Assembly: GCA_013388675.1 (NCBI GenBank)
Contig: JACAEW010000140.1
Span: forward strand, 1 to 44,523
Direction of reading: 5' to 3'
Length of the DNA: 44,523 nucleotides
DNA from: Syntrophaceae bacterium
GTDB lineage: Bacteria > Desulfobacterota > SM23-61
Under the pieces are notes generated by a model that worked only from the letters and a program-made list of their open reading frames with translations, had not been told where the DNA came from and did no database searches. Of this stretch, positions 7,225 through 34,711 are shown one piece after another. Numbering within the stretch: position 1 is the first letter of the stretch; each line of letters starts with the position of its first letter. The position numbers were made by a program, and so were the translations under genes.

Positions 7225-7267
7225 AAATTAACAATTATTTATGCTTTTGTAAAATAATTGTTAATTT
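7225..7267. promoter_or_regulatory. Perfect 16-bp-arm palindrome containing a Pho-box-like direct repeat (TTAACA-N5-TTTACA on the minus strand)
   Basis: AAATTAACAATTATTT (7225-7240) / AAATAATTGTTAATTT (7252-7267), 11-nt spacer; minus strand 7264-7248 reads TTAACAATTATTTTACA followed 4 nt later by CATAAA. Confidence 0.6.
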
Positions 7268-7293
7268 TTGCCTAAACCCAAAAAAGGAGGGGA

Positions 7294-7599
7294 ATGCTCA
7301 TGGCGTCTTTGGGTAATTTGTTTTCCAACGGATTAAAGGGGAACATCGTTTCGGGATTGGCCATCGGAGTCGGGGTGGCGATTCTGGCTCCCGTCGTGAT
7401 TCCCATTCTGGCGGGAGTCGCCAAGCCCCTGGCCAAAGGGGCGATCAAGGGCGGGATCCTGGTCTATGAAAAAGGAAAGGAAATCTACGGAGAAGTGACC
7501 GAGGTAGTGGAAGACCTGGCGGCCGAGGCCCGCTCCGAGCTTTCCGCAGCCCACAAAGAAGGCTCTGCCGCGGTTGCTGAGGGAGAAAAAAGTGTCTAA
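7294..7599 (+). CDS. DUF5132-like small membrane protein
   Basis: Gly-rich hydrophobic segment (IVSGLAIGVGVAILAPVVIPILAGVAKPLAKGAIKGGILVYEKGKEIYGEVTEVVEDLAAEARSEL), preceded by aggagg RBS. Confidence 0.8.
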   Translation: MLMASLGNLFSNGLKGNIVSGLAIGVGVAILAPVVIPILAGVAKPLAKGAIKGGILVYEKGKEIYGEVTEVVEDLAAEARSELSAAHKEGSAAVAEGEKSV

Positions 7600-8074
7600 C
7601 CCGGCCGAAGGACACATTTCCCACCAATCCCCCGGAAGGCTGAGAATCAAATTCCCCGAACAAAAGGGGCAAGAGAATTTCTTCAACAAGCTGGGGAAGA
7701 AATTGTTGAGCTGCCCGGGGGTGCAGAAGGTCGAAGCCAATCCTTCGACGGGAAGTGTCCTCCTGCTCCACGAATCCGATTCCCGGTCCATTGTCGAATT
7801 CGCCCGTGGGAAAAAGATTTTTCATGTCAGCGAGCCCAAGAAGGGGGAAAGTCCTTTTCACCAGAATCTCATCTCTTCTTTCGCCGGGCTGAATGAGAGA
7901 GTGAAATCGGGCATGGGGGGGCAGATCGACTTGTGGGGAGTTATATCCCTGCTCCTCATTGGGGCGGGAATCTATCAAGTCGCCAGGGGGAACCTGGTGG
8001 CCATTCCCTGGTACACGGCTTTGTATTACGGCTCCAATATTCTTTTGAAGTCCAGGGACGGTGGAAACGAGTAA
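7592..8074 (+). CDS. HMA-like (CxxC-less) domain membrane protein; probable GTG start (ORF listed from 7574)
   Basis: HISHQSPGRLRIKFPEQ...CPGVQKVEANPSTGSVLLLHE fold signature; C-terminal TM pair. Confidence 0.8.
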   Translation: MSNPAEGHISHQSPGRLRIKFPEQKGQENFFNKLGKKLLSCPGVQKVEANPSTGSVLLLHESDSRSIVEFARGKKIFHVSEPKKGESPFHQNLISSFAGLNERVKSGMGGQIDLWGVISLLLIGAGIYQVARGNLVAIPWYTALYYGSNILLKSRDGGNE

Positions 8075-8229
8075 CTTTTTCCACCTTTAAATCGAGATCG
8101 ATCCCGCCCGAGTGCTCATTTCCAAGATGACAAGGGAAATCTAAGGGTGAGTCTCGGGGGTTCCCCGGAGATGAGGGGAAACTTTTGTCTCTTCATGGCC
8201 CCTGAGAGTCCCGGCAAGGATTTTGAAAT

Positions 8230-11200
8230 TTGGTTCGGCCGATTCACACGGCAGTCAGCGGAAGGGGTCGTTTCCGGGTCCAGGGGCTCTACCGATCGGA
8301 ACGGCTCAAAAAACGTTTGGAAAGCGAACTGGCCAGGAACTCGGGTATCCGGTCGTGCTCCGCCAGCACCCTCACCGGAAACATTCTGGTGATCTTTGAA
8401 TCCCGCCTAACCTACCAAGCCGTTCTCGTGTTCATTCAAGAAATTCTTTCGGAGAGCCCGGAGCCCTTGGTCAACGCGGCGGGGAGGGCCTGCGCCAAGA
8501 ATGTTTCCGCCCTCAAAGGATCGAAAAGCACGGAGGGGCAGAGCAACCCGAAAAAGGGCAATCCCGCCCGGAAACAAGGCGGCCTCTCCCAACGTTTGAA
8601 GGGAAAAATGGCCGCGGTCCTTTCCGGCGGGCAGGAGCCCCGGGTTGAACCCTGGCACCGCATGGAAGGGCTGGCGGTTCTCAACCTCCTGCAAACCCCC
8701 TCCTCCGGACTGACCCAAGCCGCGGCCCTGGAGGCTAAGAATAAATACGGCCCCAACATTCTTCCCGAATCTCAGCGCCGGTCCCGCTGGAGTATCTTCG
8801 TGGACCAATTCAAATCCCTGCCGGTAGCCCTCCTGGGCGCGGCCGCGGCGATTTCCATTTTCACCGGGGGCCTGGGCGATGCCGTGGTCATCCTGGCGGT
8901 CGTTTTAATCAATGCCGGCATCGGCTTCACCACGGAAAACCAATCTGAAAAAACCATCCTCTCCCTAAAAAACCTGGTTAAACCCTCCGCTCTCGTCATC
9001 CGGGAGCAACGTCTCCAGGAAATCAAAGCGGAAGACGTGGTGGTGGGAGATATTCTGGTCCTACGCAACGGCAGTTACATCTGCGCCGATGCCCGGCTCC
9101 TCGAAATCCATCATCTGAGCGTGGATGAGTCCGTCCTGACCGGGGAGAGCATGCCGGTCTTCAAAGACGCTCTCCCCATCATCCGGGAGGGGGAAATCCC
9201 CCTGGCGGACCGGGCCAACATGGTGTACATGGGAACGCTGGTCACGGGTGGACAGGGGGTGGCGGTGGTCGTGGCCACCGGGCGGTTCACGGAAATGGGT
9301 CGGATTCAGGTTCTGACCGGAGAGGCAAGGCCCCCCGAAACCCCTATGGAACGCCAACTCGACCAAATGGGGCGTCAGCTCGTTTTCGTCAGCGGAATCA
9401 TCTGCGGGACGGTTTTTCTCATCGGCCTTCTTCGCGGGTACGGCCTCCTGCAAATGCTGAAGAGCTCCATTTCCCTGGCGGTTGCGGCTGTTCCGGAGGG
9501 CCTTCCGGCGGTGGCCACGACGACCCTGGCCATCGGGGTGCGCCAGATGCGCAGGCACAAGGTGCTTATGCGCCACCTCGCTGCGGTCGAAACCCTCGGC
9601 TCGGTGCAGACGATCTGTCTGGATAAAACCGGGACCCTTACCGAAAACCGTATGTCGGTGGTTGCCCTTCACACGGGCCTGAACCGCCTGAACCGGAACA
9701 ACGGCGGCTTCCTGCGGGTAAACGGCTGCCGTTTCAATGGACCTCCTCCGGATGGAGCCCCCGTCGTTCATCCTTACAACTGTGACGAGCTGCTACGGCT
9801 GATCCATGTCTCCGTCCTCTGCAATGAAACTGAAATAAACGGGAATAACGGAACCCACTGCCTCCGGGGGTCTTCCACGGAAAACGCTCTGGTCCAGATG
9901 GCCCTGGAGGAAGGGATCGATGTGGCCGGGCTCAAAAAACGGCATCCGATCCTGAAGGTCATTCACCGGTCCGAGAACCGGAACCTGATGATTACCATGC
10001 ACGAAAACCCGGGGGAGGAGGGCCGGCTGATCGCGATCAAAGGCAGCCCGCGGGAGGTCCTTTCCCTTTCCCGATCCTATTTCCGCGACGGAGTCCGCTT
10101 GCCCCTGAGCGACGAAGCGAGGGGGGAGATCGATGAGGAAAACGAAAGGATGGCCGGCGAGGCCCTTCGAGTCCTTGGTATGGCTTATGCCGTGGTACAA
10201 AATGATCTCCCCCTGGAGGACCTGGAGAAATCGGAAATTCTCTCCGAACACCTGATCTGGCTGGGACTGGTGGGGATGGCCGACCCCATCCGGATGGGGG
10301 TTAAGGACTTGATGAAGGTCTTCCACCGGGCCGGGATCGAGACGGTGATGATCACCGGCGACCAGAGTCCCACCGCCTACGCCATCGGTAAAGAACTGGA
10401 CTTGAGCCGGGGGGGACAGCTCGAGATTCTGGATTCCACGCATCTCTCCCAGGTTCCCCCGGAGGTCATGAAGGCCCTGTGCCGGGAGGTCCATGTCTTC
10501 GCCCGGGTCAGCCCGTCCCACAAGCTCCAGATCGTGCAGGCGCTGCAAGGGGCCGGACGGGTAGTGGCCATGACCGGCGATGGGATCAACGACGGCCCGG
10601 CCTTGAAAGCGGCGGATATCGGCGTGGCCATGGGCCGGACGGGGACCGATGTGGCCCGGGAGGTGGCCGACGTGGTCCTGGAGGACGACGAGCTGGAAAC
10701 CATGGTGGTGGCCATCCGGCAGGGACGGACCATTTACAATAACATCCGCAAGTCAGTGCACTTTCTGCTGGCCACCAACCTGAGCGAGATCATGGTCATG
10801 TTCACCGGCCTGGCGGCCGGGCTGGGGCAGCCTTTGAGCACCATACAGCTATTGTGGATCAACCTCATGTCGGACATCTTTCCCGGCTTGGCCCTAGCCC
10901 TGGAAAGCCCGGAGCCGGATATCCTGAATCAGCCCCCGAGGGACCCCCGGGAACCCATTATCCGCGCTGCGGACCTCAAGGGGATTGCCCTGGAGGCCGG
11001 AATCATCTCCGCCGGCGCCCTGGGGGCTTACGGGTACGGAATCATGCGCTACGGAATGGGGCCAAGGGCGAATAGCCTGGCTTTCCTGAGCCTCACCACC
11101 GCCCAGATTCTCCACGCGCTGAGCTGCCGCTCTGAAAAGCCGACCCTCCTCGGGGGAACCCGGATGCCCCCCAATCGCTACCTGGACCTGGCTGTGGGGG

Positions 11201-11433
11201 GCACGCTTCTTCTCCAGGCCGGGGCGCTGATGATTCCCCCGCTGAGAAGACTGCTGGGAATCTCCCCGCTCAGCCTTGCCGATTACCTGGTCGTGGGGGG
11301 CGCGGCCCTAGCGCCCCTCTTGATGAATGAGCGGGTGAAAGGGGCGAGGTACCGGAATCGCCTTGGGGAGGAAAAAAGGAAAAAAGAACAAATCCCCCGG
11401 GAGTCGGGGGAGGGAAAAGGAGAAGGGAATTGA
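8230..11433 (+). CDS. Cation-transporting P-type ATPase (Ca2+/P2-like) with N-terminal HMA-like domain; TTG start
   Basis: LTGESMPV, AVPEGLPAVATTTLA, CLDKTGTLTEN, KGSPREVL, TGDGINDGPALKAADIGVAMG, LLWINLMSD; N-term SGRGRFRVQGLYRSERL. Confidence 0.95.
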   Translation: MVRPIHTAVSGRGRFRVQGLYRSERLKKRLESELARNSGIRSCSASTLTGNILVIFESRLTYQAVLVFIQEILSESPEPLVNAAGRACAKNVSALKGSKSTEGQSNPKKGNPARKQGGLSQRLKGKMAAVLSGGQEPRVEPWHRMEGLAVLNLLQTPSSGLTQAAALEAKNKYGPNILPESQRRSRWSIFVDQFKSLPVALLGAAAAISIFTGGLGDAVVILAVVLINAGIGFTTENQSEKTILSLKNLVKPSALVIREQRLQEIKAEDVVVGDILVLRNGSYICADARLLEIHHLSVDESVLTGESMPVFKDALPIIREGEIPLADRANMVYMGTLVTGGQGVAVVVATGRFTEMGRIQVLTGEARPPETPMERQLDQMGRQLVFVSGIICGTVFLIGLLRGYGLLQMLKSSISLAVAAVPEGLPAVATTTLAIGVRQMRRHKVLMRHLAAVETLGSVQTICLDKTGTLTENRMSVVALHTGLNRLNRNNGGFLRVNGCRFNGPPPDGAPVVHPYNCDELLRLIHVSVLCNETEINGNNGTHCLRGSSTENALVQMALEEGIDVAGLKKRHPILKVIHRSENRNLMITMHENPGEEGRLIAIKGSPREVLSLSRSYFRDGVRLPLSDEARGEIDEENERMAGEALRVLGMAYAVVQNDLPLEDLEKSEILSEHLIWLGLVGMADPIRMGVKDLMKVFHRAGIETVMITGDQSPTAYAIGKELDLSRGGQLEILDSTHLSQVPPEVMKALCREVHVFARVSPSHKLQIVQALQGAGRVVAMTGDGINDGPALKAADIGVAMGRTGTDVAREVADVVLEDDELETMVVAIRQGRTIYNNIRKSVHFLLATNLSEIMVMFTGLAAGLGQPLSTIQLLWINLMSDIFPGLALALESPEPDILNQPPRDPREPIIRAADLKGIALEAGIISAGALGAYGYGIMRYGMGPRANSLAFLSLTTAQILHALSCRSEKPTLLGGTRMPPNRYLDLAVGGTLLLQAGALMIPPLRRLLGISPLSLADYLVVGGAALAPLLMNERVKGARYRNRLGEEKRKKEQIPRESGEGKGEGN

Positions 11434-12635
11434 GGAAGGACTTTATCTTCACTTCCGAATCGGTTCTGGAGGGGCATCCGGACAAACTCTGCGACCAGAT
11501 CAGCGACGCTATCGTGGATCACGTCCTGAAGCATGACCCCTTTTCCCGGATCATCGCCGAATGCGCCGTATCCACGGCGATTGTTTTCATCGCCGCCCGT
11601 TTTGCCTCCAAGGCCAAGGTGGATTTTTCCTACATCGCCCGGCAGACGATCCAGCAGATCGGCTACGATCAAAACGCCTTCAACGCCCAGACCTGCAGCA
11701 TCATTTCCAGCCTCCGGGAACTGCCCATGGAGGAATATGTGTCCTGGGACGAGAGAAAGCTGAGCGAGGAAGAGATCGACGCCATTCCGGCCAACAACCA
11801 GGCCACCATCTTCGGGTTTGCCTGCAACCAGACCGAGGTCCTCATGCCCCTGCCCATCTTTCTGGCCCACAAGCTCTCCAAGCAGCTGGCCGCCGCGCGG
11901 AAGAAAGCCCAGCTTCCTTACCTGGCGGCGGACGGAAAGACCCAGGTGGCCGTGGAGTACCGCAACCGTCGTCCCGCACGGATTCACAGCCTGACGGTCA
12001 TCGCCAGTCAGGGAAAACCCGCCTCCCAGGGGGGGCCGGACCTGAAGCGGCTGGAGAAGGATATCCGGCAGACCGTCATCGGCCCGGCCTTCCAGGAAGA
12101 GGAAATCCGGCCGGACGGCCAGACCAAGATCTTCATCAACCCCGACGGCCCCTTCATCGCCGGGGGGCCGGCGGTCCATTCCGGACTGACCGGAAGGAAA
12201 GGAGGAGTGGATACCTACGGAGAATACGCCCGCCAGAGCGGGGCGGCGCTGAGCGGCAAGGGGCCGCTGCGCATCGACCGGGTGGGCGCCTATGCCGCCC
12301 GGTACGCGGCCAAGAACGTGGTGGCCGCGGGGCTGGCCGAAGAGTGCGAGGTTCAATTGAGCTACTCCATCGGGTTGCCCAGACCGGTAAGCATCCAGGT
12401 GGAGACTTTCGATACCGGGAAGATGCCCGAGGAGAGAATTGCCGCCCTCCTGGAGAAGCACTTTGATTTTCGAGTCGGGGGGATCATCCGCCAGTTCAAC
12501 CTGCGTTTTCTCCCCTCCTTGACCCAGGGGGATTTCTACCGCAAACTGGCGGTCTATGGACATGTGGGCAGAAAGGACCTGGACCTTCCCTGGGAACGGA
12601 CTGACCGGGCGGACCGCCTAAGGGATGAAAGATAG
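11430..12635 (+). CDS. Divergent methionine adenosyltransferase (MetK-like); TTG start overlapping the ATPase stop
   Basis: FTSESVLEGHPDKLCDQISDAIVDHVL, NQTEVLMPLPIFLAHKL, FINPDGPFIAGGPAVHSGLTGRKGGVDTYG, RIDRVGAYAARYAAKNVVAAGLAEECEVQLSYSIG; TTGA overlap at 11430-11433. Confidence 0.9.
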   Translation: MRKDFIFTSESVLEGHPDKLCDQISDAIVDHVLKHDPFSRIIAECAVSTAIVFIAARFASKAKVDFSYIARQTIQQIGYDQNAFNAQTCSIISSLRELPMEEYVSWDERKLSEEEIDAIPANNQATIFGFACNQTEVLMPLPIFLAHKLSKQLAAARKKAQLPYLAADGKTQVAVEYRNRRPARIHSLTVIASQGKPASQGGPDLKRLEKDIRQTVIGPAFQEEEIRPDGQTKIFINPDGPFIAGGPAVHSGLTGRKGGVDTYGEYARQSGAALSGKGPLRIDRVGAYAARYAAKNVVAAGLAEECEVQLSYSIGLPRPVSIQVETFDTGKMPEERIAALLEKHFDFRVGGIIRQFNLRFLPSLTQGDFYRKLAVYGHVGRKDLDLPWERTDRADRLRDER

Positions 12636-12674: not shown

Positions 12675-12890
12675 ATGATCCCAGCTGATGACTTTCTTTA
12701 CGAGGACGATTCAGAACGAAAACATCACTCCTCGGCGATCCGCCGGATCGCGGAGAATTCAGGCAATTCGGTGGAAAAGGTCGAGAAGCTTTACGAAGAG
12801 AATCTTCGGAAACTCAAGCCCAGGGCGCGGGTCAAGGATTTTCTCTCCATCCTGGTAAGCCGTGAGGTGGAAGCCATCTTACGAAGTTAG
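12675..12890 (+). CDS. DUF3562-like small protein
   Basis: IRRIAENSGNSVEKVEKLYEENLRKLKPRARVKDFLSILVSREVEAIL. Confidence 0.7.
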   Translation: MIPADDFLYEDDSERKHHSSAIRRIAENSGNSVEKVEKLYEENLRKLKPRARVKDFLSILVSREVEAILRS

Positions 12891-15097
12891 GGTCTCTTTT
12901 CCTCCGCCGGAATCCATCTTAGAAGGCGCCTGGAATTCAGCATGATCCCCAGGGTGTGAAGCACGTGGAAAAGGCCCGCGGTCAGGGGGCTGAGCCGACC
13001 CGCGGCCGCCAGGAGGATTCCCAGGCCGTTGGTGGCCACAGCCAGCCAATGGTTCTGCTCGATGACCCGCAGGGTCTGCCGGCTGATTTGCCGGAGCCGG
13101 ATCAGCCGGTTGAGGTCGTTGTCCACCAGGGCGATATCGGCTGCTTCCAGGGCGACTTCAGACCCACCCGCCCCCATGGCGATTCCAACCTCCGCCCGGG
13201 CGAGGGCCAGGGCGTCGTTGACCCCGTCTCCGACCATGACCACCCGGAGGCCCCGCTGTTGCAGCTCTTCCACGTACCCGGATTTTTCTTCGGGCCGAAG
13301 AAGGGCGCGGCAGTCGTCCAGAGCCAGCTCCCGGGAGACCCGCCGGGCCACCGGCTCGGTATCCCCGGAGACGAGGCAAAGCACCCGCACCCCATCGCGG
13401 CGCAGACTATTCACGGCCTCGACCGAGCCCGGACGGAGTGGGTTGGCCACGCCGATCAGACCCTGAGCCCTCCCATTTTTGGCCACATACAGCGCCGTGT
13501 GGCCTGAATCCATAAGACGGCACCCCCGTTTGCGGAAGTAGCGGACATCCACTCCTTCCTCTTTCATATAATCTTCATTGCCCACCAGGACCGTTTCCTT
13601 TTCCACTACGGCGCGAACACCCTTACCCAGGACAAATTCGCTAGAAGAGGGGGGAGAGGGGAAAAGGTTGCGCCCGGCAGCCTCTTCCACGATGGCCCGG
13701 GCCAAAGGGTGGGGATTTTGGTTTTCCGCCGCGGCGGCGAGCAACAAGATTTTCTCCGGCGCCATTTTCGACGACCGGGGAACCACCGCGACGATCCGGG
13801 GAGAGTCCGAAGTGAGGGTCCCGGTCTTGTCGAAACAGAAGCAGTCGGCTTCGCCGATTCTTTCCAGATAGAGCCCCCCTTTGATGAGGCATCTGTTCCG
13901 CGCAGCGTTGGCCAAAGCGGCAGCCACCGCCGTAGAGGCGGCCAGAGCCGAGGCGCATGGGCAGGCCATGACCAGAAGGACGGTAAAGGCGCGGAAAACC
14001 TGGCCGGTCAGGACATAGGTGAGCGCAGTGGCCCAAAAACCCAGATGCAACAGGCGGCGGGCCAAGCGGTCGGCTCTCTGCTCCGCCGGAGCGCGGTTGG
14101 CGAGGGATTCGTCAACCAGGCGCAGAACCCGGCGCAGGTAGGTGTCTTCTCCGACCTGCTCGGCCCGGAGGTAAAGCCTCCCCTGCTGCAGCCGCGTACC
14201 GGCATAAACCCGATGATCCGCCCTGCGGAATTCCGGCTCGCTCCTTCCGGTGATATGGCTCTCATCCACCAGGCCCTCGCCGCGGATCACGGTTCCGTCC
14301 ACGGGAATTTTTTCTCCCGGATAGATCACCACCGTATCCCCGGGATACACCCGCTCAGCGGGGGTCCGCACTTCTTTCCCCTCCACCAGGATGAGCGCTT
14401 GCTTTACGGTCACCTGGAGAACTTCACGGATTTCCCTCCGGGATTTTTCCGCCACCGAGTCTTCCAGGAGGAGGCTCAGGGCCGTGACCCAGAGGACTTC
14501 CAGGGCGGTCAAGGCCTGTCCCATGAAAACCGCCAGCAGGCAGGTCCCGGCTAAGAAGGGGAAAAGACTCATTCCGGGCTTCTTTTTTTGGAGAGCAACC
14601 CTGGAGCGGTGGAGGAGGGGAAGGGAACCCAGGAGGACCGTGATACCCAGCAGGCTCAAGGGCCCCTGGGAAAGTGGAGAACGGAAAAAAAATCTCCGCC
14701 CGAGGGCATATAGACCCACCAGGGAAAAAGCGGCAAGCCACCCGATACCTCCGTGCCAGGAACCTCGCAGGGGACGGACCGGTGCTCCCAATTCTTGGGG
14801 GGCGCGCCGCCGAAAGGGTTGCTCCCGCGGCGTGGGAGAAGAGGGGTAAAGAAGGAGTCCCTCCTGCAACAGGTCCACCAACTCCCGAGGGGTTGTTTCG
14901 CCAGGTTTGAAGAGCAAGATCACGCTCCCCGTCGTGGGACGGGCTTCCGCCTTTTCAACACCAGGCTGGCCTGAAAGCCAATCCTGAAGGAGGCGCGCTT
15001 GGTCCCTGGAGTGCTTCAGTCCGGAGACCCGGACGCGCAGTCGGCCGGGGGAGGCATGCGAGATTTCATAAGGTTGCGAAAAATGTGTTATGCTCAT
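12887..15097 (-). CDS. Heavy-metal translocating P-type (P1B) ATPase with N-terminal CxxC-less HMA-like domain
   Basis: CPCASALA, CFDKTGTLTSD, NPHPLARAIVEEA, GDGVNDALALARAEVGIAMG; start ATG at 15097 preceded by GGGAGGTCCTGCC (supplied ORF extends upstream to 15190). Confidence 0.93.
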   Translation of the reverse strand: MSITHFSQPYEISHASPGRLRVRVSGLKHSRDQARLLQDWLSGQPGVEKAEARPTTGSVILLFKPGETTPRELVDLLQEGLLLYPSSPTPREQPFRRRAPQELGAPVRPLRGSWHGGIGWLAAFSLVGLYALGRRFFFRSPLSQGPLSLLGITVLLGSLPLLHRSRVALQKKKPGMSLFPFLAGTCLLAVFMGQALTALEVLWVTALSLLLEDSVAEKSRREIREVLQVTVKQALILVEGKEVRTPAERVYPGDTVVIYPGEKIPVDGTVIRGEGLVDESHITGRSEPEFRRADHRVYAGTRLQQGRLYLRAEQVGEDTYLRRVLRLVDESLANRAPAEQRADRLARRLLHLGFWATALTYVLTGQVFRAFTVLLVMACPCASALAASTAVAAALANAARNRCLIKGGLYLERIGEADCFCFDKTGTLTSDSPRIVAVVPRSSKMAPEKILLLAAAAENQNPHPLARAIVEEAAGRNLFPSPPSSSEFVLGKGVRAVVEKETVLVGNEDYMKEEGVDVRYFRKRGCRLMDSGHTALYVAKNGRAQGLIGVANPLRPGSVEAVNSLRRDGVRVLCLVSGDTEPVARRVSRELALDDCRALLRPEEKSGYVEELQQRGLRVVMVGDGVNDALALARAEVGIAMGAGGSEVALEAADIALVDNDLNRLIRLRQISRQTLRVIEQNHWLAVATNGLGILLAAAGRLSPLTAGLFHVLHTLGIMLNSRRLLRWIPAEEKRP

Positions 15098-15249
15098 GGC
15101 AGGACCTCCCTGGTACCGGAATGAAGGGCCCATCCTGGCCGGGGGAAGAACCCAAGGCGGTGCAAAGGCTATGCAGGAATAAGGTATCACAAGATCGGGA
15201 AAGGAGACAATAGAAGGAATTCCGAAAATTCTTACGGCTGGGAGCAGGA

Positions 15250-15309: not shown

Positions 15310-15678
15310 TTAGATGATGGCGGTCAAAAAAGACAGGCCGGTACCCTCCAGGGCTACCCCGGCGGCTGAGCCGAAGAGCGCCCGGCTTACGATCTGGCCA
15401 GCTTTGGCAACAGCGTTATGGATGTACTGATCGTTGGTGACCGCCTTGGAACGGTCAAAGTATCCATGCCTTTGAAAGGCTTTCTCAATCTCTTTTCCCT
15501 GGACCTGGCCGGGATCGTAGAAAATGGTCACGCTTCCGGTGGTCGGGTTCAATTCGGCAGCTTCAACACCCCTTAAGGTGGAAAGAAGCTCCCGGACTTC
15601 GGGGTGATATTTCTCGTTCTTGAGAATTGGGCTTTTGATCCTTAACCTTCCAGGAATCTGGTGGATGTAATGGTTCAC
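15310..15678 (-). CDS. HMA-like (CxxC-less) domain small protein; probable GTG start
   Basis: VNHYIHQIPGRLRIKSPILKNEKYHPEVRELLSTLRGVEAAELNPTTGSVTIFYDP; GGAGGAAGAGA upstream of GTG. Confidence 0.82.
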   Translation of the reverse strand: MNHYIHQIPGRLRIKSPILKNEKYHPEVRELLSTLRGVEAAELNPTTGSVTIFYDPGQVQGKEIEKAFQRHGYFDRSKAVTNDQYIHNAVAKAGQIVSRALFGSAAGVALEGTGLSFLTAII

Positions 15679-15973
15679 TCTCTTCCTCCTTGGGATGGGT
15701 TGGCAAGCGATGATAACCCCGGCAGGCCGGGTAGGCGGAACACCGAAAACGGATGACTCCAAATTGTCGCCGGTATAAGTGCATTTTATTCCCGCATTTA
15801 GGGCACTGAGGCCTTTGCGGAATCGGCAGAGGCCTCTTCCCGATGGTGAACTGGCGATTGCATTGGAGGCATATCAGCCGAGGAGTTCCCGACCGGCTCT
15901 TTCCGTATCGATTGGTCGCCTCCGAATTGCATCTCGGGCAGCGAATCATCTCTTTTTCCCGATCCAGCTTCAT
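15563..15973 (-). CDS. Double zinc-ribbon protein
   Basis: IRCPRCNSEATNRYGKSRSGTPRLICLQCNRQFTIGKR...PQCPKCGNKMHLYRRQFGVIRFRCSAYPACRGY; overlaps the next gene by ~115 bp. Confidence 0.65.
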   Translation of the reverse strand: MKLDREKEMIRCPRCNSEATNRYGKSRSGTPRLICLQCNRQFTIGKRPLPIPQRPQCPKCGNKMHLYRRQFGVIRFRCSAYPACRGYHRLPTHPKEEESEPLHPPDSWKVKDQKPNSQEREISPRSPGASFHLKGC

Positions 15974-16010
15974 GATTAAGTGTATTTCACCAAACGCCCT
16001 TTAATTCAGG

Positions 16011-16037
16011 ATTATATTCTTGTAAAATATTTGTAAA
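16011..16037 (-). promoter_or_regulatory. Pho-box-like direct repeat TTTACA-AATAT-TTTACA with TATAAT -10
   Basis: Minus strand 16037-16021 reads TTTACAAATATTTTACA; TATAAT at 16016-16011; 38 bp upstream of the zinc-ribbon start codon. Confidence 0.65.
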
Positions 16038-16231: not shown

Positions 16232-16537
16232 ATGGGTCTGCTAAAGAAGGGCATTCTATTCGGCATCGGCTTAGTCTCCCATGCTGAGGAAAAATTGGAA
16301 TCCTTCTCCGAGGAAATGGTGAAAAAGGGAGAAGTCGCCCAGCAGGAAGTCAAGAAAAAGATGGAAGAGCGTCTGGCCGCCTCCCGGAAGAAAAAGGAGG
16401 GGGCCGAGAAGACGGAGCCCGCGAGGATGAAGGAGCAGATGGTCGAAGCGGGCCTGGTCAGCCGTGAAGACCTTCAGAAGCTCGAAGACCGCATCGCCGC
16501 CCTGGAATCGAAGCTGGACCGGATTTCTCGCGCCTGA
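16232..16537 (+). CDS. Phasin-like coiled-coil protein
   Basis: MGLLKKGILFGIGLVSHAEEKLESFSEEMVKKGEVAQQEVKKKMEERL...LVSREDLQKLEDRIAALESKLDRI; aaggaggtg RBS (supplied ORF starts at 16154). Confidence 0.78.
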   Translation: MGLLKKGILFGIGLVSHAEEKLESFSEEMVKKGEVAQQEVKKKMEERLAASRKKKEGAEKTEPARMKEQMVEAGLVSREDLQKLEDRIAALESKLDRISRA

Positions 16538-18026: not shown

Positions 18027-18053
18027 TTTAATAATATTTTACAGATCGATTAT
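18027..18053 (+). promoter_or_regulatory. Pho-box-like repeat TTTAAT-AATAT-TTTACA plus -10-like GATTAT
   Basis: 18027-18043 TTTAATAATATTTTACA; 4-nt gap; GATTAT 18048-18053; upstream of the alkaline phosphatase gene. Confidence 0.5.
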
Positions 18054-18201
18054 CCGGCCATAACATTCGTTTGGCCAAATAAAAAACGCAGGGGTCAAAT
18101 CCAGCCTTGATTTTTCAGAAATCCCCGGGTCCTTCTCTTGGATTGGAGAACAAGGGAAGACGATCCTGAATCCAAAACAGATTAACCCACAGGAGGAAAA
18201 T

Positions 18202-19779
18202 ATGCGCAGCAAGGCGTTCGCGGTCCTGTTTGCAGGGATTTTACTTGGTTTCATGGCGGCTTCCGGCGGAATGGCGGCGCCCCCGGCGAAACCGACAGCC
18301 AAATATGTTTTTCTGTTCATCGGCGACGGCCTGGGGATCGCCCAGCGGAATTCGGCGGAGCTTTATGTGGCCGCTACAAGAGGGTTGTCCCGGCCGGAAC
18401 AGGCCAAACTGGTGATGAACACCTTTCCGGCGCAGGGAATGAACACGACCTATGATTTGACCAGCGTGATTCCCGACTCGGCCTCGGCGGCCACGGCCAT
18501 TTCCTGCGGGTTTAAGACCAAGTCAGGGGTCATCGGGATGGATGCACAGGCCAAAGTCCGGTATGAAACGATTGCCGAGCTGGCCAAGAAGAAAGGCTGG
18601 AAGATCGGCATCCTGAGTAGCGTTTCTCTCGACCATGCCACGCCGGCCGCCTTCTATGCCCATGTCCCGAGCCGGCGTCAGATGTACGAAATTTCCATGC
18701 AGCTGGTTGAATCCGGGTTCGATTACTTTGCGGGAGGGCAGCTCTTGCAGCCCGCGGATCAGAAAGACCCCGGGAAACCCAACGCCCTGGAGACGGCCAA
18801 GAAAAACGGCTATCGGGTCGCCATGGGGCGGGCCGGCTTCCAGCAGCTGAAGCGGGGGAGCGGCAAGGTCATCGCCATGAATGACCTGGTGGACAAAAAT
18901 GCGGCGATGTATTATGCCCTGGACCAGAAGAACGGGAACGGTCATGTCACCCTCGCCGAATATACCGCCAAGGGAATCGAGCTGCTGGAGAATCCCAAGG
19001 GGTTTTTCATGATGATCGAAGGGGGCAAGATCGACTGGGCCTGCCATGCCAATGACGCGGCGGCTTCCATTCATGACGTGCTGGCCCTGGATGAGGCAGT
19101 GGCGGAGGCGGTGAAATTCTACCAGAAGCATCCCCAGGAAACCCTCATTATCGTGACCGGCGATCATGAAACCGGGGGAATGACCATTGGCTTTGCCGGG
19201 ACCCGGTACTCATCCTTTGTGGATAAAATCCGGCATCAGAAGATGAGCTACATCGAATTCGGAAAGAAATGGGAGGAATACAAGAAGACCCAGAGCAAGG
19301 GGGATGCCAAGTTTGAGGATATTCTTCCGCTCATCAAGGAGGCCTTCGGCCTCTACATTCTCTCCCCCGAGGAAAAGGCCGCCCTGCAAAAGACCATGGG
19401 GGAAGGAAAGGGCAAAGACGCTTCTGAGGAGGTTAAAAAGGCGGCTAAAGAGGCGGAGATCAAAATGAAATATAGCATGCTTTTGACCGACCTGGAATTG
19501 AAAGTCCTGCAGGAAGCGTTTCAGCAGAGCATGGTTGGCAAAAAAGAAAGGGCGGCGGATGATTACACCTATCTCCTTTACGGCGGGTACGAACCCCTGG
19601 CCGTCAAATTGACCACCATCTTGAATAACAAAGCCGGGATCGGCTGGACCTCGTACTCCCACACCGGGGTGCCCGTACCTACCTCGGCCCTGGGAGTGGG
19701 GGCGACGATGTTCAACGGCTACTACGACCAGACCGACATATACGTCAAAATGATGAGGATTGCCGGCTTCGGGAAGTAA
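18202..19779 (+). CDS. Alkaline phosphatase (PhoA superfamily), secreted
   Basis: Signal peptide; KYVFLFIGDGLGIAQRNSAELY, SVIPDSASAATAISCGFKTKSGVIGMDA, EGGKIDWACHANDAAASIHDVLALDEAV, VTGDHETGGMTIG. Confidence 0.95.
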   Translation: MRSKAFAVLFAGILLGFMAASGGMAAPPAKPTAKYVFLFIGDGLGIAQRNSAELYVAATRGLSRPEQAKLVMNTFPAQGMNTTYDLTSVIPDSASAATAISCGFKTKSGVIGMDAQAKVRYETIAELAKKKGWKIGILSSVSLDHATPAAFYAHVPSRRQMYEISMQLVESGFDYFAGGQLLQPADQKDPGKPNALETAKKNGYRVAMGRAGFQQLKRGSGKVIAMNDLVDKNAAMYYALDQKNGNGHVTLAEYTAKGIELLENPKGFFMMIEGGKIDWACHANDAAASIHDVLALDEAVAEAVKFYQKHPQETLIIVTGDHETGGMTIGFAGTRYSSFVDKIRHQKMSYIEFGKKWEEYKKTQSKGDAKFEDILPLIKEAFGLYILSPEEKAALQKTMGEGKGKDASEEVKKAAKEAEIKMKYSMLLTDLELKVLQEAFQQSMVGKKERAADDYTYLLYGGYEPLAVKLTTILNNKAGIGWTSYSHTGVPVPTSALGVGATMFNGYYDQTDIYVKMMRIAGFGK

Positions 19780-24945: not shown

Positions 24946-25559
24946 GGTTTGGGCCTCGCAGTGGGCTCTTCCGCGTAGCCGTCCATCTCCATCGTCTTCT
25001 TGAGGACCTTGATTTCGCTCTCCAGGTCGAAAATATCGCCCTGAAGAAGCTTGACATAATGCTTTTCAAAAACGCGGTGCAGGTCTTCAAGGGTATGCCG
25101 GGCCTTGTCCAGGGGAAGGGTGATTTCCTTTCCCGCCTGCCGGTGCTCCTCCAGCTCATCATAGCGGCGGACCACCTTGTGAAGGACATCCATGTAATAA
25201 GGCAGGGCCCTTCGGGTGCTCTTGACCAGGGAGGGTTCCGCTTTCACCTTGTTCAGGATGTTTTCGACGCTCCGCCCGATCCGCTGCACCTTTTTCCCCA
25301 CTTCGCCGTCAGTCACTTTGGCGGCCGCGGAAAGGATTGCCGCCATCTTCTCATTCATCTCTTGGAGAAAGGCTTTCACCTCCCCGTCTCTTATTCCGCC
25401 CAGGGCGACCGCCAACCCCTTTTGTTTGTGGCCGATGAGCAATACGGCGCCGAACCCGGCTATGGCCGATAGGAGGGAAAAGAGAAGGGGCCCTCCCAGG
25501 GCCAGGTAGAAGAACAGAAAGATTCCTCCTCCGATGGTACCCGCCAGGATGTTTTTCAT
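24942..25559 (-). CDS. XpaC-like protein (5-bromo-4-chloroindolyl phosphate hydrolysis family)
   Basis: Two N-terminal TMs; ALPYYMDVLHKVVRRYDELEEHR...ARHTLEDLHRVFEKHYVKLLQGDIFDLESEIKVLKKTMEMDG. Confidence 0.78.
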   Translation of the reverse strand: MKNILAGTIGGGIFLFFYLALGGPLLFSLLSAIAGFGAVLLIGHKQKGLAVALGGIRDGEVKAFLQEMNEKMAAILSAAAKVTDGEVGKKVQRIGRSVENILNKVKAEPSLVKSTRRALPYYMDVLHKVVRRYDELEEHRQAGKEITLPLDKARHTLEDLHRVFEKHYVKLLQGDIFDLESEIKVLKKTMEMDGYAEEPTARPKP

Positions 25560-27426: not shown

Positions 27427-27602
27427 CTGCCCGTTGCATCTTCCTCCGATAATAAACATGGATAATACCCCCACCCAAGGGGAATCTTCCGGCAATGGGC
27501 CGGTCCCATTCAGCGGGAAAAAATCCATGTCGCCCAGGGGGAGATAAACGCCGATGCGGCCCGGTTCAAGAGGATCTTCTTCGAATTTATGGGGATGAGC
27601 AA

Positions 27603-30002
27603 ATGAAAATCGACCTTCATGTCCATTCCAAGTTTTCGGATCAAGCCCCGGAATGGGTCCCGAGGAAAATCGGTTGCCGAGAAAGTTACTCGGAGCCCCT
27701 TCATATTTACCGGGTTGCCATGGAGAGGGGCATGAATGGGGTCACCATTACCGATCACAATTCCATCCTCGGGTCGCTGGCCATCGCCCATCTCCCGAAT
27801 GCCTTTATCAGCGAGGAGGTGACCACTTATTTCCCCGACCATCCGGGGGAAATCCATGTCCTTGCCCTGCGCATCAACGAGGAAAAGCATCGAGAAATCC
27901 AAAGGCTCCGCCGGAACATTTTCGACCTGGTCGCCTATCTGAAAGACCAGGCCATTCCCCATGTCCTGGCCCATCCCCTTTATGGCCTGGGGAGTCACCT
28001 TCCTGGCGACGTATTTGAGCGGCTTCTGCTCCTTTTCCGGAATTTCGAGGCGAACGGTACCCGGGCGGAAGAACAGAATGAGACCCTGAAGGCTATCCTT
28101 TCGTTTCTCCGCCCGGAAGACATGGAGAGGCTTGGCGAGCTTCACGGCTTTCGGCCCCCCGACCCCGATCCCTGGTTGAAGAATCTGGTGGGCGGTTCCG
28201 ACGACCACAGCCTTCTGTATGTGGGCTCCCGTTATACCGAGGTGCCGGGGGCCCAGGGGTTGGAGGATTTTTTTCGGGGTTTGGAAACAGGAAACGCCCG
28301 GGTTGGGGGGGGTCAATCCAAACCGGAGCAACTGGCCCATTCCGTTTGCAGTATTGCCTATCAATTCTTCAGGGAGCGCCTGGGTCTCCAGCGGACCCGA
28401 GGGCGCAATCCCATCTTTCGATTCCTCGATCGATCCCTCCTGGCGCGGATTGAAGAAAAGGAAACTTTTCTCCCTCGCCTTCGCGGGTTTTGGCCGCATC
28501 TGGGGATTCGGGGGCTAAAAAATATGGGCTTCCAGACCGGGTGGAGCATCTTTCAGCGGACGGTTCTAAAGCCGTTCCTGGGGGACCCGCAACTCAAGGA
28601 ATTCCTGAAGACCGTAAAAGGTGGAGACGATCACGGCAGCCAATGGTTTCGTTTTGTTAAGACCGCGGTGAATACGTCCCTCAGCCAGATTATGGAGCAG
28701 GTTTTCCAAGACGCGGATGCCGCATCCTGCGGACTCCTTCCCCTTCTCCCCTCCATCGGCTCAGCCGGAACCTTCGGCCTTTTGGCGGGGCCCTATATGG
28801 GTTCCTATGCCCACGCTGCCGCGGATCGCCGCTCCAGCCGCCAGGTCCTCGAGAATTTTTTTCCTTCTATTCCCGGAAAAGGCCGGGAAAGCTTAATCGG
28901 CTGCTTCTACGATACGCCGGAGGGGGGGTTGGCGCGGTCGCTTTTCTCAGCCGGGGAACATGGGCTGGGATTCGCCGGGACCGGTTTGCCATGGACCGGG
29001 ATCACCTGTCATGGAGAAAGCGTTGCGCCAGAGGGGAATTTTAAGGTTTTCCGTCCGGTTGGGCGTTTCGTTTTTGGGCCTGACCCGGTGCCTCCATTCC
29101 CGATTCCTCCATTTCTAGACCTTTTGCAATACTCTTACGAGAGCAATTTCACCGGCATCCATTCCCTGACCCCCGGCCCCATGGGTCTGGCCGCCCTGGC
29201 GATCGCCCGCATCCTGCGGCTTCCGATTCGAGCCACCCTTCACGGCGGCATATCCCGTTTCACCCGGCGCTTTTCCGGCGATCCCTCTGCGGAGGCCACC
29301 CTCTGGAAATACCTTTCCTGGTACTACAACCGCATGGAACAGCTTAACGTCCCCTCCCGATGGGCCGTGAAGGACTTGGCGAGGAGGGGATTGCGGCAGG
29401 ATAAGATGCGGGTTTTCTCTCCCCCCGTGGATTTGCAGCGGTTCAATCCGGTCAAGAGAAACGGGTACCTTGAAAAAAGATTCGCCCTGACGAGGGGAGC
29501 GGGCCTCCTCTATGTCGGATGGATCGCGAGTGAAAACGATATTCCCCTGCTGGGAAAAATCCTTGCCCAACTCCGGCGGACCGCTCGGGAGGCATACCTC
29601 ATTTGCATGGGGGAGATTCCCGAACGATCGGAACTGGAGAAAAGCTTAAGGGGGGCTCCCGTCTTTTTCACCGGCCCATTGGAAGAAGAAGACCTGGCCT
29701 TGCTCTTGGCTTCTTGCGATCTCTTCGTTTCCCCGAGTATTTCCGATTTGGAGGGGGAGATCGTGCTGCAAGCACAGGCCTCGGGCCTGCCCGCCGTGGT
29801 AGCCGATTCGGGATGTTTCCCGGAGTTCATCATTCCGGGCCAGACGGGTATGATCGTAAAGGCCGGGGATGCATCCGGTTTATTCCAGGCCATGGAGACC
29901 CTCACTCTGGACGCCGCCAGGCGCCAAAGAATGGCCAGGGCGGCCCGCCGCCACATGGAGGAGCGAAATGTTACCGCGGATTTCCCCCAGACCCTATTCT
30001 AA
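27603..30002 (+). CDS. PHP-domain phosphoesterase fused to GT4-type glycosyltransferase
   Basis: MKIDLHVHSKFSDQAPEW...GVTITDHNSI..VLAHPLYG...GGSDDHSL; C-term RFNPVKRNGY..LLYVGWIASENDIPLLGKIL...VFFTGPLEEEDLALLLASCDLFVSPSISDLEGEIVLQAQASGLPAVVADSG. Confidence 0.88.
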   Translation: MKIDLHVHSKFSDQAPEWVPRKIGCRESYSEPLHIYRVAMERGMNGVTITDHNSILGSLAIAHLPNAFISEEVTTYFPDHPGEIHVLALRINEEKHREIQRLRRNIFDLVAYLKDQAIPHVLAHPLYGLGSHLPGDVFERLLLLFRNFEANGTRAEEQNETLKAILSFLRPEDMERLGELHGFRPPDPDPWLKNLVGGSDDHSLLYVGSRYTEVPGAQGLEDFFRGLETGNARVGGGQSKPEQLAHSVCSIAYQFFRERLGLQRTRGRNPIFRFLDRSLLARIEEKETFLPRLRGFWPHLGIRGLKNMGFQTGWSIFQRTVLKPFLGDPQLKEFLKTVKGGDDHGSQWFRFVKTAVNTSLSQIMEQVFQDADAASCGLLPLLPSIGSAGTFGLLAGPYMGSYAHAAADRRSSRQVLENFFPSIPGKGRESLIGCFYDTPEGGLARSLFSAGEHGLGFAGTGLPWTGITCHGESVAPEGNFKVFRPVGRFVFGPDPVPPFPIPPFLDLLQYSYESNFTGIHSLTPGPMGLAALAIARILRLPIRATLHGGISRFTRRFSGDPSAEATLWKYLSWYYNRMEQLNVPSRWAVKDLARRGLRQDKMRVFSPPVDLQRFNPVKRNGYLEKRFALTRGAGLLYVGWIASENDIPLLGKILAQLRRTAREAYLICMGEIPERSELEKSLRGAPVFFTGPLEEEDLALLLASCDLFVSPSISDLEGEIVLQAQASGLPAVVADSGCFPEFIIPGQTGMIVKAGDASGLFQAMETLTLDAARRQRMARAARRHMEERNVTADFPQTLF

Positions 30003-31349: not shown

Positions 31350-33314
31350 TCAGGAATCGAGGATTTCGCGGACCTGGTTGGCCAACTTCTCGACACTGAA
31401 GGGTTTCGAAAGATACCCGCTTCGTTCGGGAAGGGATTGCTGATCACTCAAGGCCCGGTCCGTATGTCCGGAGAGAAAGAGTACTTTCAAATCCTTGCAG
31501 AACGGACGAAGCTGCTCGGCCAAATCTACGCCGCCCATGCCCGGCATCACCACATCGGTCATAAGAAGATCGATCCTTCCCTCATATCTGCGCCGCAGTT
31601 CCAGCGCCTCAAAGCCGTTGGAGGCTTCCAAGACCTGATACCCTTGTTTCCGAAGAATGCGCAGGACCAGATTCCGAACTTTTTCCTCGTCTTCGACCAC
31701 CAGAATCGTTTCCGCCCCCTTGGGGATTTGGCCCTGGGCGCTTTTTTCCTTTTTTTCCTCCTCCAGGGTTTCCAGACGGGGAAAATAGAGCTTGAAGGTC
31801 GCACCATGGCCGGGTTCGCTGTATACCCGGATATGGCCGAGGCTTTGGGTCACGATTCCATATACCGTCGCCAGTCCCAATCCCGTTCCCTTTCCTTTCT
31901 CTTTGGTGGTAAAGAAGGGCTCGAAGATTCGGCTCTGCACCTCGGGGGTCATGCCGATGCCCGTGTCGCTTACCGAAAGCATCACGTATTTTCCCGGTTT
32001 CACGCTCACGTGGCGCTGGCTGATGGCGGCATCGAATTCTACATTCCCGGTTTCAATCAGAAGCCGGCCGCCCTTGGGCATGGCATCGCGGGCATTGACC
32101 GCCAGATTGAGGATCACCTGCTCGATCTGCCCAACGTCCGCCTTGACCGTTCCCAAATCAGGGGTCAAATGCGTTTGGAGCTCTATGTCCTCACCGATCA
32201 AGCGGCGGAGCATCTTTTGCAGGTTGCGGATAACTCCGTTCAGGTCTAACACCCGCAATTCCATGATTTGCCGGCTGCTGAAAGCCAGAAGCTGTTTGGT
32301 CAGGGATGCCGCCTTATCACCCGCCTCTTTGATTTCCTGAAAGGACTCCTGGAAGCGGTCCCCCTCCGCCAGTTCCATCAGGCAAAGCTGGGCATGGCAG
32401 TTGATAACCGAGAGGATATTGTTGAAATCGTGGGCGACCCCTCCGGCGAGACGTCCGATGGTTTCCAATTTCTGGGACTGTTGAAGCTGTCTTTCGAGAT
32501 TTCTTACCTCCCGCAGCTTCTCGGAAAGGTTTTTCATGGCCGAAAGGAGCTGCCCCGCCTCATCTCCCCGGTCCACCCGGATCTCTGCGGACAGGTCCCC
32601 TTCCGCGAGTTGGTTGGCCACTTCGACCCCCTGACGCAGGGGTCCGGTGATGCTCCTCGTCAGAAAAAAGATCATTAACCCGGCGGCCAGGCAAATCCCT
32701 CCGCCGACCGCCGCAGACAGATTGCGGGTAAAGAAATAAGCATCTTCGGTTTGCCAATAGAGAAGGTCGCTCTGCTCTTTTTCAAAGATGACAAGTTCGG
32801 CGCAAATCTGCTGCAGTTGCTGAAGAACAGGCCTCGCGCTGATCATGTAATCATGACCCGGGCCTGCCCCGATCTTCGGTGAGTCCCCCATAAGAATTCG
32901 GTCGCTGGCGCTTCGGGATTTCTCCACGGCCTTCTTAAGCCGATCCAGCAGGTCTCTTCCCCTTTCCGTTTGCTCCAGCCTCTCTAATTCCGTCAGGGAG
33001 GTTTGCAGGCTTTCCCGGGAAGTCAAGATTTTTACGTATTCCATGCTCCTGACGATTTCGTCCGGGGAAAGGGCGGTTATCAAAAGGGCTTTGTCGATGG
33101 TATGGACGGCGTCCCGGATCATGTTGGCGTGCCATATTTTGGCATTGTTGACTTGGAGGATGGAATCCATCTTATCCTTCATGCGGTTCATATTCGAAAT
33201 GCCCAGAACCCACACAAAAACCATGGACCCTAAGGCGAAACCGAGGACCATCACCAGACGATGCCCGATTTTCATATTGCGCCAGGGAAAGGGATTCATC
33301 TCTTCTCGTTTCAT
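31350..33314 (-). CDS. Hybrid sensor histidine kinase (periplasmic sensor + HAMP + HisKA/HATPase + REC)
   Basis: LAGGVAHDFNNILSVI, VNARDAMPKGGRL, VSDTGIGMTPEVQSRIFEPFFTTKEKGKGTGLGLATVYGIV, ILVVEDEEKVRNL...LLMTDVVMPGMGGVDLAEQL. Confidence 0.95.
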   Translation of the reverse strand: MKREEMNPFPWRNMKIGHRLVMVLGFALGSMVFVWVLGISNMNRMKDKMDSILQVNNAKIWHANMIRDAVHTIDKALLITALSPDEIVRSMEYVKILTSRESLQTSLTELERLEQTERGRDLLDRLKKAVEKSRSASDRILMGDSPKIGAGPGHDYMISARPVLQQLQQICAELVIFEKEQSDLLYWQTEDAYFFTRNLSAAVGGGICLAAGLMIFFLTRSITGPLRQGVEVANQLAEGDLSAEIRVDRGDEAGQLLSAMKNLSEKLREVRNLERQLQQSQKLETIGRLAGGVAHDFNNILSVINCHAQLCLMELAEGDRFQESFQEIKEAGDKAASLTKQLLAFSSRQIMELRVLDLNGVIRNLQKMLRRLIGEDIELQTHLTPDLGTVKADVGQIEQVILNLAVNARDAMPKGGRLLIETGNVEFDAAISQRHVSVKPGKYVMLSVSDTGIGMTPEVQSRIFEPFFTTKEKGKGTGLGLATVYGIVTQSLGHIRVYSEPGHGATFKLYFPRLETLEEEKKEKSAQGQIPKGAETILVVEDEEKVRNLVLRILRKQGYQVLEASNGFEALELRRRYEGRIDLLMTDVVMPGMGGVDLAEQLRPFCKDLKVLFLSGHTDRALSDQQSLPERSGYLSKPFSVEKLANQVREILDS

Positions 33315-33332: not shown

Positions 33333-34385
33333 TCAGCGCGTGAGGGGATGGCCACCATAGGTGATGGCCTCGATGAGGTGGTTGGCTTTCGACGCCGCTT
33401 CGGGGGAAAGGGGGGCATAGTGGAGGGGTCTGGCAAATTTCTGGCCGTCGCGGATGATCCAGCGCAGCAACTTGACAACCTCTTCTGCTCTTTCCTTGTT
33501 TCTTCCCGCGTAGTTTTGCTCCCGGTACAAGACCAACCAGGTGAAGCTGCTGATGGGATAGCCGTTGTCGGCATGGGTGTCCGTGAGGGATATATGCGTG
33601 TCGTCCGGCAGGGGTACCTCGGCGGCCAAACTCACGGAATCCGGAGTGGGGCTAATGTACCTCCCATTCCGGTTTTTAACCGCACCCACGGTCATATCGT
33701 TTCCGAGCGCATAGATGAGTTCCACGTAGCCGATCGATCCGGGAATCTGTTTGACCGAACCGGCCACCCCCGGATTTCCCTTCGCTCCGGTTCCGACGGG
33801 CCAATTCAAGCTTTTCCCGGTTCCGACTTTTTCCTGCCACTCGGAAATGGTCTTGCTCAGGTATTCGCTGAAGATATGGGTTGTTCCGCTCCCGTCCGAG
33901 CGATGAACGACGCGGATATTCATGGCTGGAAGTTTCGCCTCTCCGTTGATGGCTGCAATCTTCTGATCATCCCATCTTTGGATTTTTCCCAGGAAAATAT
34001 CCGCCAGGACCCCGGGGGTGAATCTCAGCATGGGATTCTCGGGCAGGTTGTAGGTAAGGGCCACCGCCCCCAAACAGGTGGGGATGTGGATGACCGGGGC
34101 TCCGGCTTCCTTCATTTCCTGGGGGGTCATGAAGGCGTCGGTCCCCCCGAAGTCGATCTTCCTCTCAATGATCTGGCTGATCCCTCCTCCCGAACCTATT
34201 CCCTGATAATGGATTTTAATCCCGGTTTGACGAAAATAAGCATCGAAGATTCTGTGATAGAAGGGGAGGGGAAAGGTTGCGCCGGCCCCCCGCAATTCCC
34301 TTTCAACCGCCTTGGCCGGAGACGCGTTGAAGCCGAGAAAAAAAACAACTGCGAGACAAAGGAATCGAATGCTGCAGGTTTCCAT
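33333..34385 (-). CDS. pstS: Phosphate ABC transporter substrate-binding protein PstS
   Basis: Signal peptide; LRGAGATFPLPFYHRIFDAYFRQTGIKIHYQGIGSGGGISQIIERKIDFGGTDAFMT; VHRSDGSGTTHIFSEYL. Confidence 0.95.
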   Translation of the reverse strand: METCSIRFLCLAVVFFLGFNASPAKAVERELRGAGATFPLPFYHRIFDAYFRQTGIKIHYQGIGSGGGISQIIERKIDFGGTDAFMTPQEMKEAGAPVIHIPTCLGAVALTYNLPENPMLRFTPGVLADIFLGKIQRWDDQKIAAINGEAKLPAMNIRVVHRSDGSGTTHIFSEYLSKTISEWQEKVGTGKSLNWPVGTGAKGNPGVAGSVKQIPGSIGYVELIYALGNDMTVGAVKNRNGRYISPTPDSVSLAAEVPLPDDTHISLTDTHADNGYPISSFTWLVLYREQNYAGRNKERAEEVVKLLRWIIRDGQKFARPLHYAPLSPEAASKANHLIEAITYGGHPLTR

Positions 34386-34432
34386 GGGACCTCCTCGTAC
34401 GCCAATCGGTCTATTCCGATTTTTAGGCTTGA

Positions 34433-34665
34433 TTCGAAAAGTACGTGATCAATGAATTTCGGGGAATCATTCGTAAAAGGGCAGAGTCGCGCCCGGTAAC
34501 CAGGATTTTCCTTAAGACCCCGGCGCTCCCCAAAATCCCCCCTGCCCCTCTTTATCAAAGGGGGGGTGGGGGAGGGATTTCAAAGAGGGGTTGGCCATAC
34601 AAAATGTCTTGGCCAATTTCAGGCTTTTTTTGAAAGCGTGCGCGATGAATCACGTACTTTTCGAA
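34433..34665. mobile_element. 233-bp MITE-like element with perfect 17-bp terminal inverted repeats
   Basis: TTCGAAAAGTACGTGAT at 34433-34449 and its reverse complement ATCACGTACTTTTCGAA at 34649-34665; noncoding, internal inverted G/C runs. Confidence 0.7.
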
Positions 34666-34684
34666 CATAACCGACTTTTACTTT

Positions 34685-34711
34685 AGCGTATTGATGTTAA
34701 AGAATTGTAAA
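34685..34711 (-). promoter_or_regulatory. Pho-box-like repeat TTTACA-ATTCT-TTAACA with -10-like TACGCT upstream of pstS
   Basis: Minus strand 34711-34695 TTTACAATTCTTTAACA, then TCAA and TACGCT. Confidence 0.6.

Follow-up and report, generated by a model that had tools for sequence, protein, structure and literature searches.

The window, that is, the whole stretch of 44,523 nucleotides analysed here, is contig C255 of a 4,997,860-base draft genome (5.0 Mb) of a Syntrophaceae bacterium (GCA_013388675.1). Its genes and candidate regulatory sites are listed in Table 1. The membrane protein encoded next to DUF5132 has an HMA_2 domain with a conserved GRLR basic motif, and its structure model has the HMA fold (Foldseek E-values of about 0.01, TM to HMA domains of up to 0.67). 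ATPase A keeps the M4 PEGL, M5 N..E and M6 N..D residues that are typical of Ca pumps. The nearest equivalog is the PMR1-type TIGR01522, of the SERCA/PMR1-type Ca ATPases, with a score of 600.6, below the cut-off of 798.3. ATPase B keeps the DKTGT phosphorylation site, but PVGF replaces PEGL and the M5/M6 ion-site residues are lost; judging from these motifs, its substrate has probably changed or been lost. The genome has five HMA_2 domains, and all of them lie within the window. The MetK encoded here is 44% identical to the MetK encoded on contig C229. By promoter alignment, the true start of the zinc-ribbon gene is probably the ATG at 15949. A scan of the window for RNA elements and tRNA found none. 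We also observed a gene for a small phasin-like coiled-coil protein (16232-16537; PF05597 below the cut-off), divergent from the zinc-ribbon operon.

Table 1. Genes and candidate Pho boxes of the window, in order of position.
Feature	Position	Strand	Basis or remark
EEP-family hydrolase	6345..7064	-	PF03372
Possible two-unit box TTTAAA-N5-TTAACA toward DUF5132	7217..7233	+	TAAAAT 16 nt 3'; weaker, not significant alone
Candidate Pho box, units TTAACA-TTTACA-ATAAAT-TTAATT	7226..7264	-	between EEP (-) and DUF5132 (+); 12.5 bits
DUF5132 small membrane protein, Glu/Ala-rich tail	7294..7599	+	PF17195, E=1.5e-12; alignment
HMA_2 domain + membrane helices, no CxxC	7574..8074	+	PF19991
ATPase A, HMA_2-fused P2-type cation ATPase	8230..11433	+	Pfam; PEGL, NLSE, NLMSD kept
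Second MetK (SAM synthetase paralogue)	11430..12635	+	TIGR01034 above cut-off
HMA_2-fused P1B-type heavy-metal ATPase, CPC motif	12887..15190	-	TIGR01525 above cut-off
Small HMA_2 protein	15310..15762	-	PF19991
Zinc-ribbon protein	15563..15973	-	Pfam zinc-ribbon matches
Candidate Pho box TTTACA-TTTACA-ATAATC-TTAAAG	15999..16037	-	5' of Zn-ribbon/HMA_2/P1B-ATPase genes; 11.4 bits
Candidate Pho box TTTAAT-TTTACA-ATTATC-ATAACA	18027..18065	+	5' of alkaline phosphatase; 17.1 bits, top match of the window
Alkaline phosphatase	18202..19779	+	PF00245
YibE/F membrane protein	19798..21039	+	adjoins phosphatase also in G185
PHP-like N-terminus + GT4 glycosyltransferase	27495..30002	+	GT family matches; PHP likeness to L164 by eye
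Hybrid histidine kinase, 3' of pstS	31350..33314	-	read from translation; relative beside PstS in G277
PstS phosphate-binding protein	33333..34385	-	TIGR00975, 342 bits vs cut-off 205
Candidate two-unit Pho box TTTACA-N5-TTAACA	34695..34711	-	5' of pstS; strict motif; TAAAGT 9 nt after unit 2
ATPase B, HMA_2-fused P-type ATPase, degenerate ion-site motifs	34895..37909	-	

A preliminary description of this DNA had proposed that four intergenic TTNANA-N5-TTNACA sites mark a phosphate-starvation island. The quoted sequences were all found verbatim in the window, on the strands and at the positions reported. For the genome we counted exact patterns. The loose motif TTNANA-N5-TTNACA has 21 matches in 5.0 Mb, compared with 12 for a reversed-pattern control, and four of the 21 fall inside the 44.5-kb window. 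The strict motif TTHACA-N5-TTHACA has only seven matches: three in the window (the sites at 7264, 16037 and 34711), three on contig C220 and one elsewhere.

Contig C220 carries pstS, pstC, pstA, pstB, two phoU genes, a gene for a PhoB-like regulator with Response_reg and Trans_reg_C domains, and kinase genes, of which the one adjoining the regulator was read from the sequence. Two of its strict matches overlap and form a perfect triple repeat, TTTACA ATTCC TTTACA ATGGA TTAACA, 5' of pstS; the third lies 5' of the phoB operon. The probability that at least three of the four strict sites outside the window fall on C220 is 6.7e-7, or 9e-5 when the overlapping pair is counted once. As C220 had not been seen when the motif was described, it provides an independent test. 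The motif could have proved not to be enriched near phosphate genes; we observed the opposite: outside the window, strict sites cluster nowhere in the genome but at the pst/pho locus. With an estimated contamination of 5.13% in the draft, it is conceivable that the window and C220 do not belong to one organism. Two further observations concern this contig: an 18.2-bit Pho box (L002, 6566-6604) lies 5' of a gene for a low-molecular-weight phosphatase/ArsC-like protein (6629-7090), and an 825-aa protein gene (L001, 14355-16832) with a weak Pho box adjoins phoB. The 825-aa protein has no Pfam or NCBIfam match, and its relatives are encoded beside the DUF5132 module described below in G295, G066 and G227.

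We fitted a 39-column motif to the pstS upstream regions of other genomes in the phylum together with two promoters of the own genome. The fitted motif consists of four 11-bp units with a consensus of about (T/G)TAACA. For testing, a 39-bp matrix was built from 17 foreign pstS promoter sites, with the own genome and G014 left out, and scored on the window and on selected loci. On C220 it gives 20.7 bits for pstS and 19.1 bits for phoB. In the window, both strands considered, the three best matches are the boxes in front of alkaline phosphatase, between EEP and DUF5132, and in front of the zinc-ribbon gene, in this order; the fourth score, 11.3 bits at 40138, is intragenic. In shuffled windows the best score has a median of 8.9 bits and a 97.5th percentile of 13.1, and 0.075 matches of at least 12 bits are expected per window. 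Only the site at 18027-18065 is therefore significant singly against the whole window, and the scores at 7226-7264 and 15999-16037, taken singly, are inside the 97.5th percentile. The alkaline phosphatase site is imperfect when only two units are considered, yet it is the top four-unit scorer. Conversely, the pstS site at 34711 keeps its standing as a strict two-unit box, but it has only two good units and a four-unit score of -3.1, the weakest of the four. The "weaker relatives" that had been listed at 27400, 21353 and 38054 score 9.1, 8.2 and 10.3 bits, within the range of shuffled intergenic DNA (90th percentile 11.1), and we do not retain them.

The four-unit model also changes the position of the -10 element, which had been placed 4 nt after the second unit. 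The +4 hexamer is real as a pattern, with a mean of 4.25 of 6 matches to TATAAT. Nevertheless, when the hexamers 3' of unit 2 are compared with TATAAT in 20 core pstS/phoB promoters, there are peaks at +4 and +15, two positions separated by one repeat, and a further one at +31, at a distance of 9 nt from unit 4. This succession indicates that the +4 hexamer is unit 3 of the 11-bp array and that the genuine -10 lies farther 3'. With 30 mostly held-out sites, the peak is again found 9 nt after unit 4 (3.07 matches, z = 3.4). In the window, a -10 at this distance is clear for the box at 15999-16037 (TGAAAT) and weak for those at 7226-7264 and 18027-18065.

Known Pho boxes are AT-rich tandem direct repeats of 11-nt units located 5' of pst and phosphatase genes (PMC4415409, PMC1906773; for D. 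vulgaris PMC3333781), with the -10 about 10 bp downstream (PMC1906773). The geometry of an array followed by a -10, as read here from the promoters, is in line with these published boxes. The hallmarks of a Pho regulon are indeed found: 11-nt tandem repeats, the motif 5' of the organism's own pst/pho genes, the -10 spacing, and encoded PhoB/PhoR-type regulators. Compared with the PhoB/PhoP boxes of E. coli, Bacillus, Desulfovibrio vulgaris and cyanobacteria, the unit differs, being TT(T/A)ACA or GTAACA instead of CTGTCAT; moreover, pstS promoters of the relatives usually have four units, and the genes that would be controlled include an undescribed module.

This module is conserved. Of 297 genomes sampled from the phylum, 19 have DUF5132, and the set that recurs near it comprises the HMA_2 membrane protein, a protein with a 22-residue-periodic repeat, the HMA_2-fused ATPase and MetK, often joined by the zinc-ribbon and small HMA_2 proteins. 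The HMA_2-fused ATPase has close full-length relatives in G014, G050, a Nitrospiraceae genome, Desulfobacterales, Desulfurivibrio and cyanobacteria. The module recurs in other families of the phylum, in Nitrospiraceae, in Desulfobacterales and partly in cyanobacteria, often beside pst/pho genes: genes for Pst, PhoU or PhoB-like proteins lie within the same 8-20-kb stretch in G014, G227, G295, G185, G277, L037 and L041. The locus of G185 also has alkaline phosphatase, YibE/F and P1B ATPase genes, and that of G277 genes for a PHP-GT protein, PstS and a hybrid kinase. In most relatives the repeat protein gene sits between those of the HMA_2 protein and the ATPase. The repeat protein itself (L114, 11602-12297; L037, 2-748) is Gly/Ala-rich and amphipathic, and has a weak match to Pfam Senescence.

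We then looked at the boxes around the module in other genomes. At a threshold of at least 15 bits, the foreign matrix gave 27 matches, some of which belong to pst genes inside the loci, in 19 module loci (333 kb) and none in 20 control stretches (400 kb). Such a box was present in 12 of the 19 module loci and in 0 of the 20 controls (p=1.3e-5), the controls being taken from the same genomes at the same G+C and picked by position, without regard to their share of intergenic DNA. At DUF5132 itself, boxes occur at the matching EEP/DUF5132-type intergenic position in several relatives; compared with shuffles, p is below 0.05 in 14 of 23 loci and below 0.01 in eight. Five of the 23 (G117, G066, G100 and G275 twice) have no sign of a box there (p>0.4), and in G185, G275, G204 and G117 no match above the threshold was found anywhere in the locus. 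The clearest case is the zinc-ribbon promoter, whose box is conserved in six genomes (own plus five), 3-28 bp 5' of the annotated start; unit 4 is followed, at a distance of exactly 9 nt, by TATATT, TATTAA, TAATGG, TATTTA, ATATAA or TGAAAT. In cyanobacteria, L041 (8627-8665), L042 (8252-8290) and L085 (7325-7363) have four TTAACC repeats with an 11-bp period, the known cyanobacterial Pho-box type, near the HMA_2-ATPase, and they share a repeat of 11-bp period 5' of the ATPase; as these loci are closely related to each other and score close to the 95th percentile of shuffles, the support that they bring is weak.

Based on these comparisons, we consider that the sites of the window are operators of the organism's own PhoB and that the genes behind them are under Pho control, with a probability of about 0.8. 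Alternatively, AT-rich intergenic DNA could have given rise to the repeats by chance, and two of them would happen to precede phosphate genes. AT-rich spacers do yield words like TTNACA, and, taken singly, two of the three scores in the window are unexceptional; however, six of the seven strict copies in 5 Mb fall in two phosphate-linked stretches, and the comparisons with control DNA (27 matches versus 0) and of the zinc-ribbon promoter in six genomes largely refute this explanation, which we regard as very improbable. OmpR-family relatives of PhoB bind similar tandem repeats. Another member of this family with an 11-bp-period site, for instance one responding to metal or envelope stress, might thus own the boxes and also control pst or recognize a PhoB-site look-alike. 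The cargo is rich in metal-handling proteins, and the box at 7226-7264 is enclosed by an inverted repeat, TTAACAATTATTT...AAATAATTGTTAA, which is unusual for PhoB. On the other hand, only pstS promoters went into the training of the matrix, and pst/pho genes adjoin the module, which makes such a regulator improbable.

A third possibility is that only alkaline phosphatase, pstS and perhaps EEP are Pho-controlled, the cargo genes being mere neighbours that are expressed otherwise, in some relatives by a divergent PadR-like repressor. In fact, the box at DUF5132 is often oriented away from it, toward the divergent gene, and PadR-like genes are divergent from DUF5132 in G050, G168, G256 and G277. 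But the boxes of G078 (30.0 bits), G085, G214 and L039 are directed into DUF5132, L039 has one that faces the ATPase, and in the six genomes the box faces the zinc-ribbon gene. We therefore judge this restricted control to be unlikely. As a separate observation, a Pho box lies in the intergenic region shared by DUF5132 and the PadR-like gene (L115, 16148-16513; G168, G256, G277).

For Pho control of the window by PhoB, we infer that PhoB would bind the boxes and that the genes would be induced at low phosphate. The operator would consist of four head-to-tail 11-bp units (two for pstS), with the last unit in the place of the -35 and the -10 hexamer 9 nt further on. When phosphate is low, phospho-PhoB would bind the window boxes and turn on alkaline phosphatase-YibE/F as well as PstS and its sensor kinase; it would likewise turn on the two groups that make up the conserved module, one of zinc-ribbon/HMA_2/P1B-ATPase genes and one of EEP and, divergent from it, DUF5132-HMA_2-ATPase-MetK. 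The core of the preliminary description thus stands, since Pho boxes and pst/pho genes accompany its cargo in further families and in other phyla as well, while the -10 at +4 and the weak sites do not. The inclusion of the P-type ATPases and the MetK-like protein is made plausible by the recurrence of the module with boxes and pst/pho neighbours. For the glycosyltransferases, loci of relatives suggest Pho control but the window's own site gives no support, and the methyltransferase that had also been named is not supported. Pho regulons are known in a few model bacteria; the refined four-unit operator model predicts regulon members for an uncultured group, and the regulation would tell when the conserved and apparently undescribed pump/small-membrane-protein module is used, namely at low phosphate.

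The Ca-type residues of ATPase A, the CxxC-less HMA fold and the layout of DUF5132 led us to a proposal on the function of this module. Small one-helix proteins with a Glu/Ala-rich tail, PacL (DUF1490) and DUF6110, are encoded beside P-type ATPases and form platforms (PMC9374683). DUF5132 is alike in layout and not in sequence: it has no HMM match to DUF1490 or DUF6110, only DUF5132 being found, so membership was rejected, and the ATPase here is P2-type with an HMA_2 domain. The ferrosome (fez) cluster, whose FezC is described in PMC10979944, also has a central P-type ATPase pump and a proposed membrane compartment. It differs in that the main ATPase here is P2-type, not P1B, and in the Pho boxes in front. 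Ferrosome membership was rejected as well, since no FezC/DUF4405-type match was found among the window proteins scanned; with regard to a P1B-6 FezB, the window has one ATPase with CPC, assigned at the P1B level. Calcyanin and the CoBaHMA proteins of carbonate-forming cyanobacteria combine a CxxC-less HMA-like domain with glycine-rich helical repeats. In this combination they may resemble the HMA_2 proteins together with the 22-residue repeat protein that the relatives have, although separate genes encode these; a search of the own genome, a weak test, did not find the repeat protein.

The module products may thus form a membrane platform or compartment in which DUF5132 would be the scaffold and the HMA_2-fused P2-type ATPase would move a divalent cation (Ca2+ or similar). 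Made at phosphate shortage, it might deal with cations associated with phosphate stores or with a switch from phospholipids to phosphate-free lipids. Such a cation-pumping platform, suggested by domain likeness, is a tentative proposal. Its extension to several phyla, as a cation-storage compartment with a DUF5132 scaffold, CxxC-less HMA_2 domains, the repeat protein, a Ca-type ATPase and a dedicated SAM synthetase, built under PhoB and linking phosphate starvation to metal or mineral granules, is more doubtful still; if true, it would not have been described before. A search of the available literature found no paper on DUF5132. The regulation gives a testable handle on this family and points to a connection that may exist, in several phyla, between metal and phosphate homeostasis.

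Lipid replacement also bears on the PHP-GT gene of the window, whose product is possibly a glycolipid synthase. In D. alaskensis at low phosphate, phospholipids are replaced and an Agt-like glycosyltransferase gene matters for growth (PMC5193443); by this parallel, the PHP-GT gene is a plausible candidate for Pho control too. G085, G214 and G277 have PHP-GT relatives close to the module; in G247 and G204, the gene next to the promoter of DUF5132 encodes a PHP-domain protein related to that of the window. In these two genomes (L164, L170) we also noted that genes for a DUF2334-like deacetylase and the PHP-domain protein are divergent from DUF5132, with a box common to both directions. Finally, in the window, the genes of a TelA protein and its neighbours (22756-25559), tied to no box, adjoin the gene of a solute-binding/VWA protein (25596-27281).
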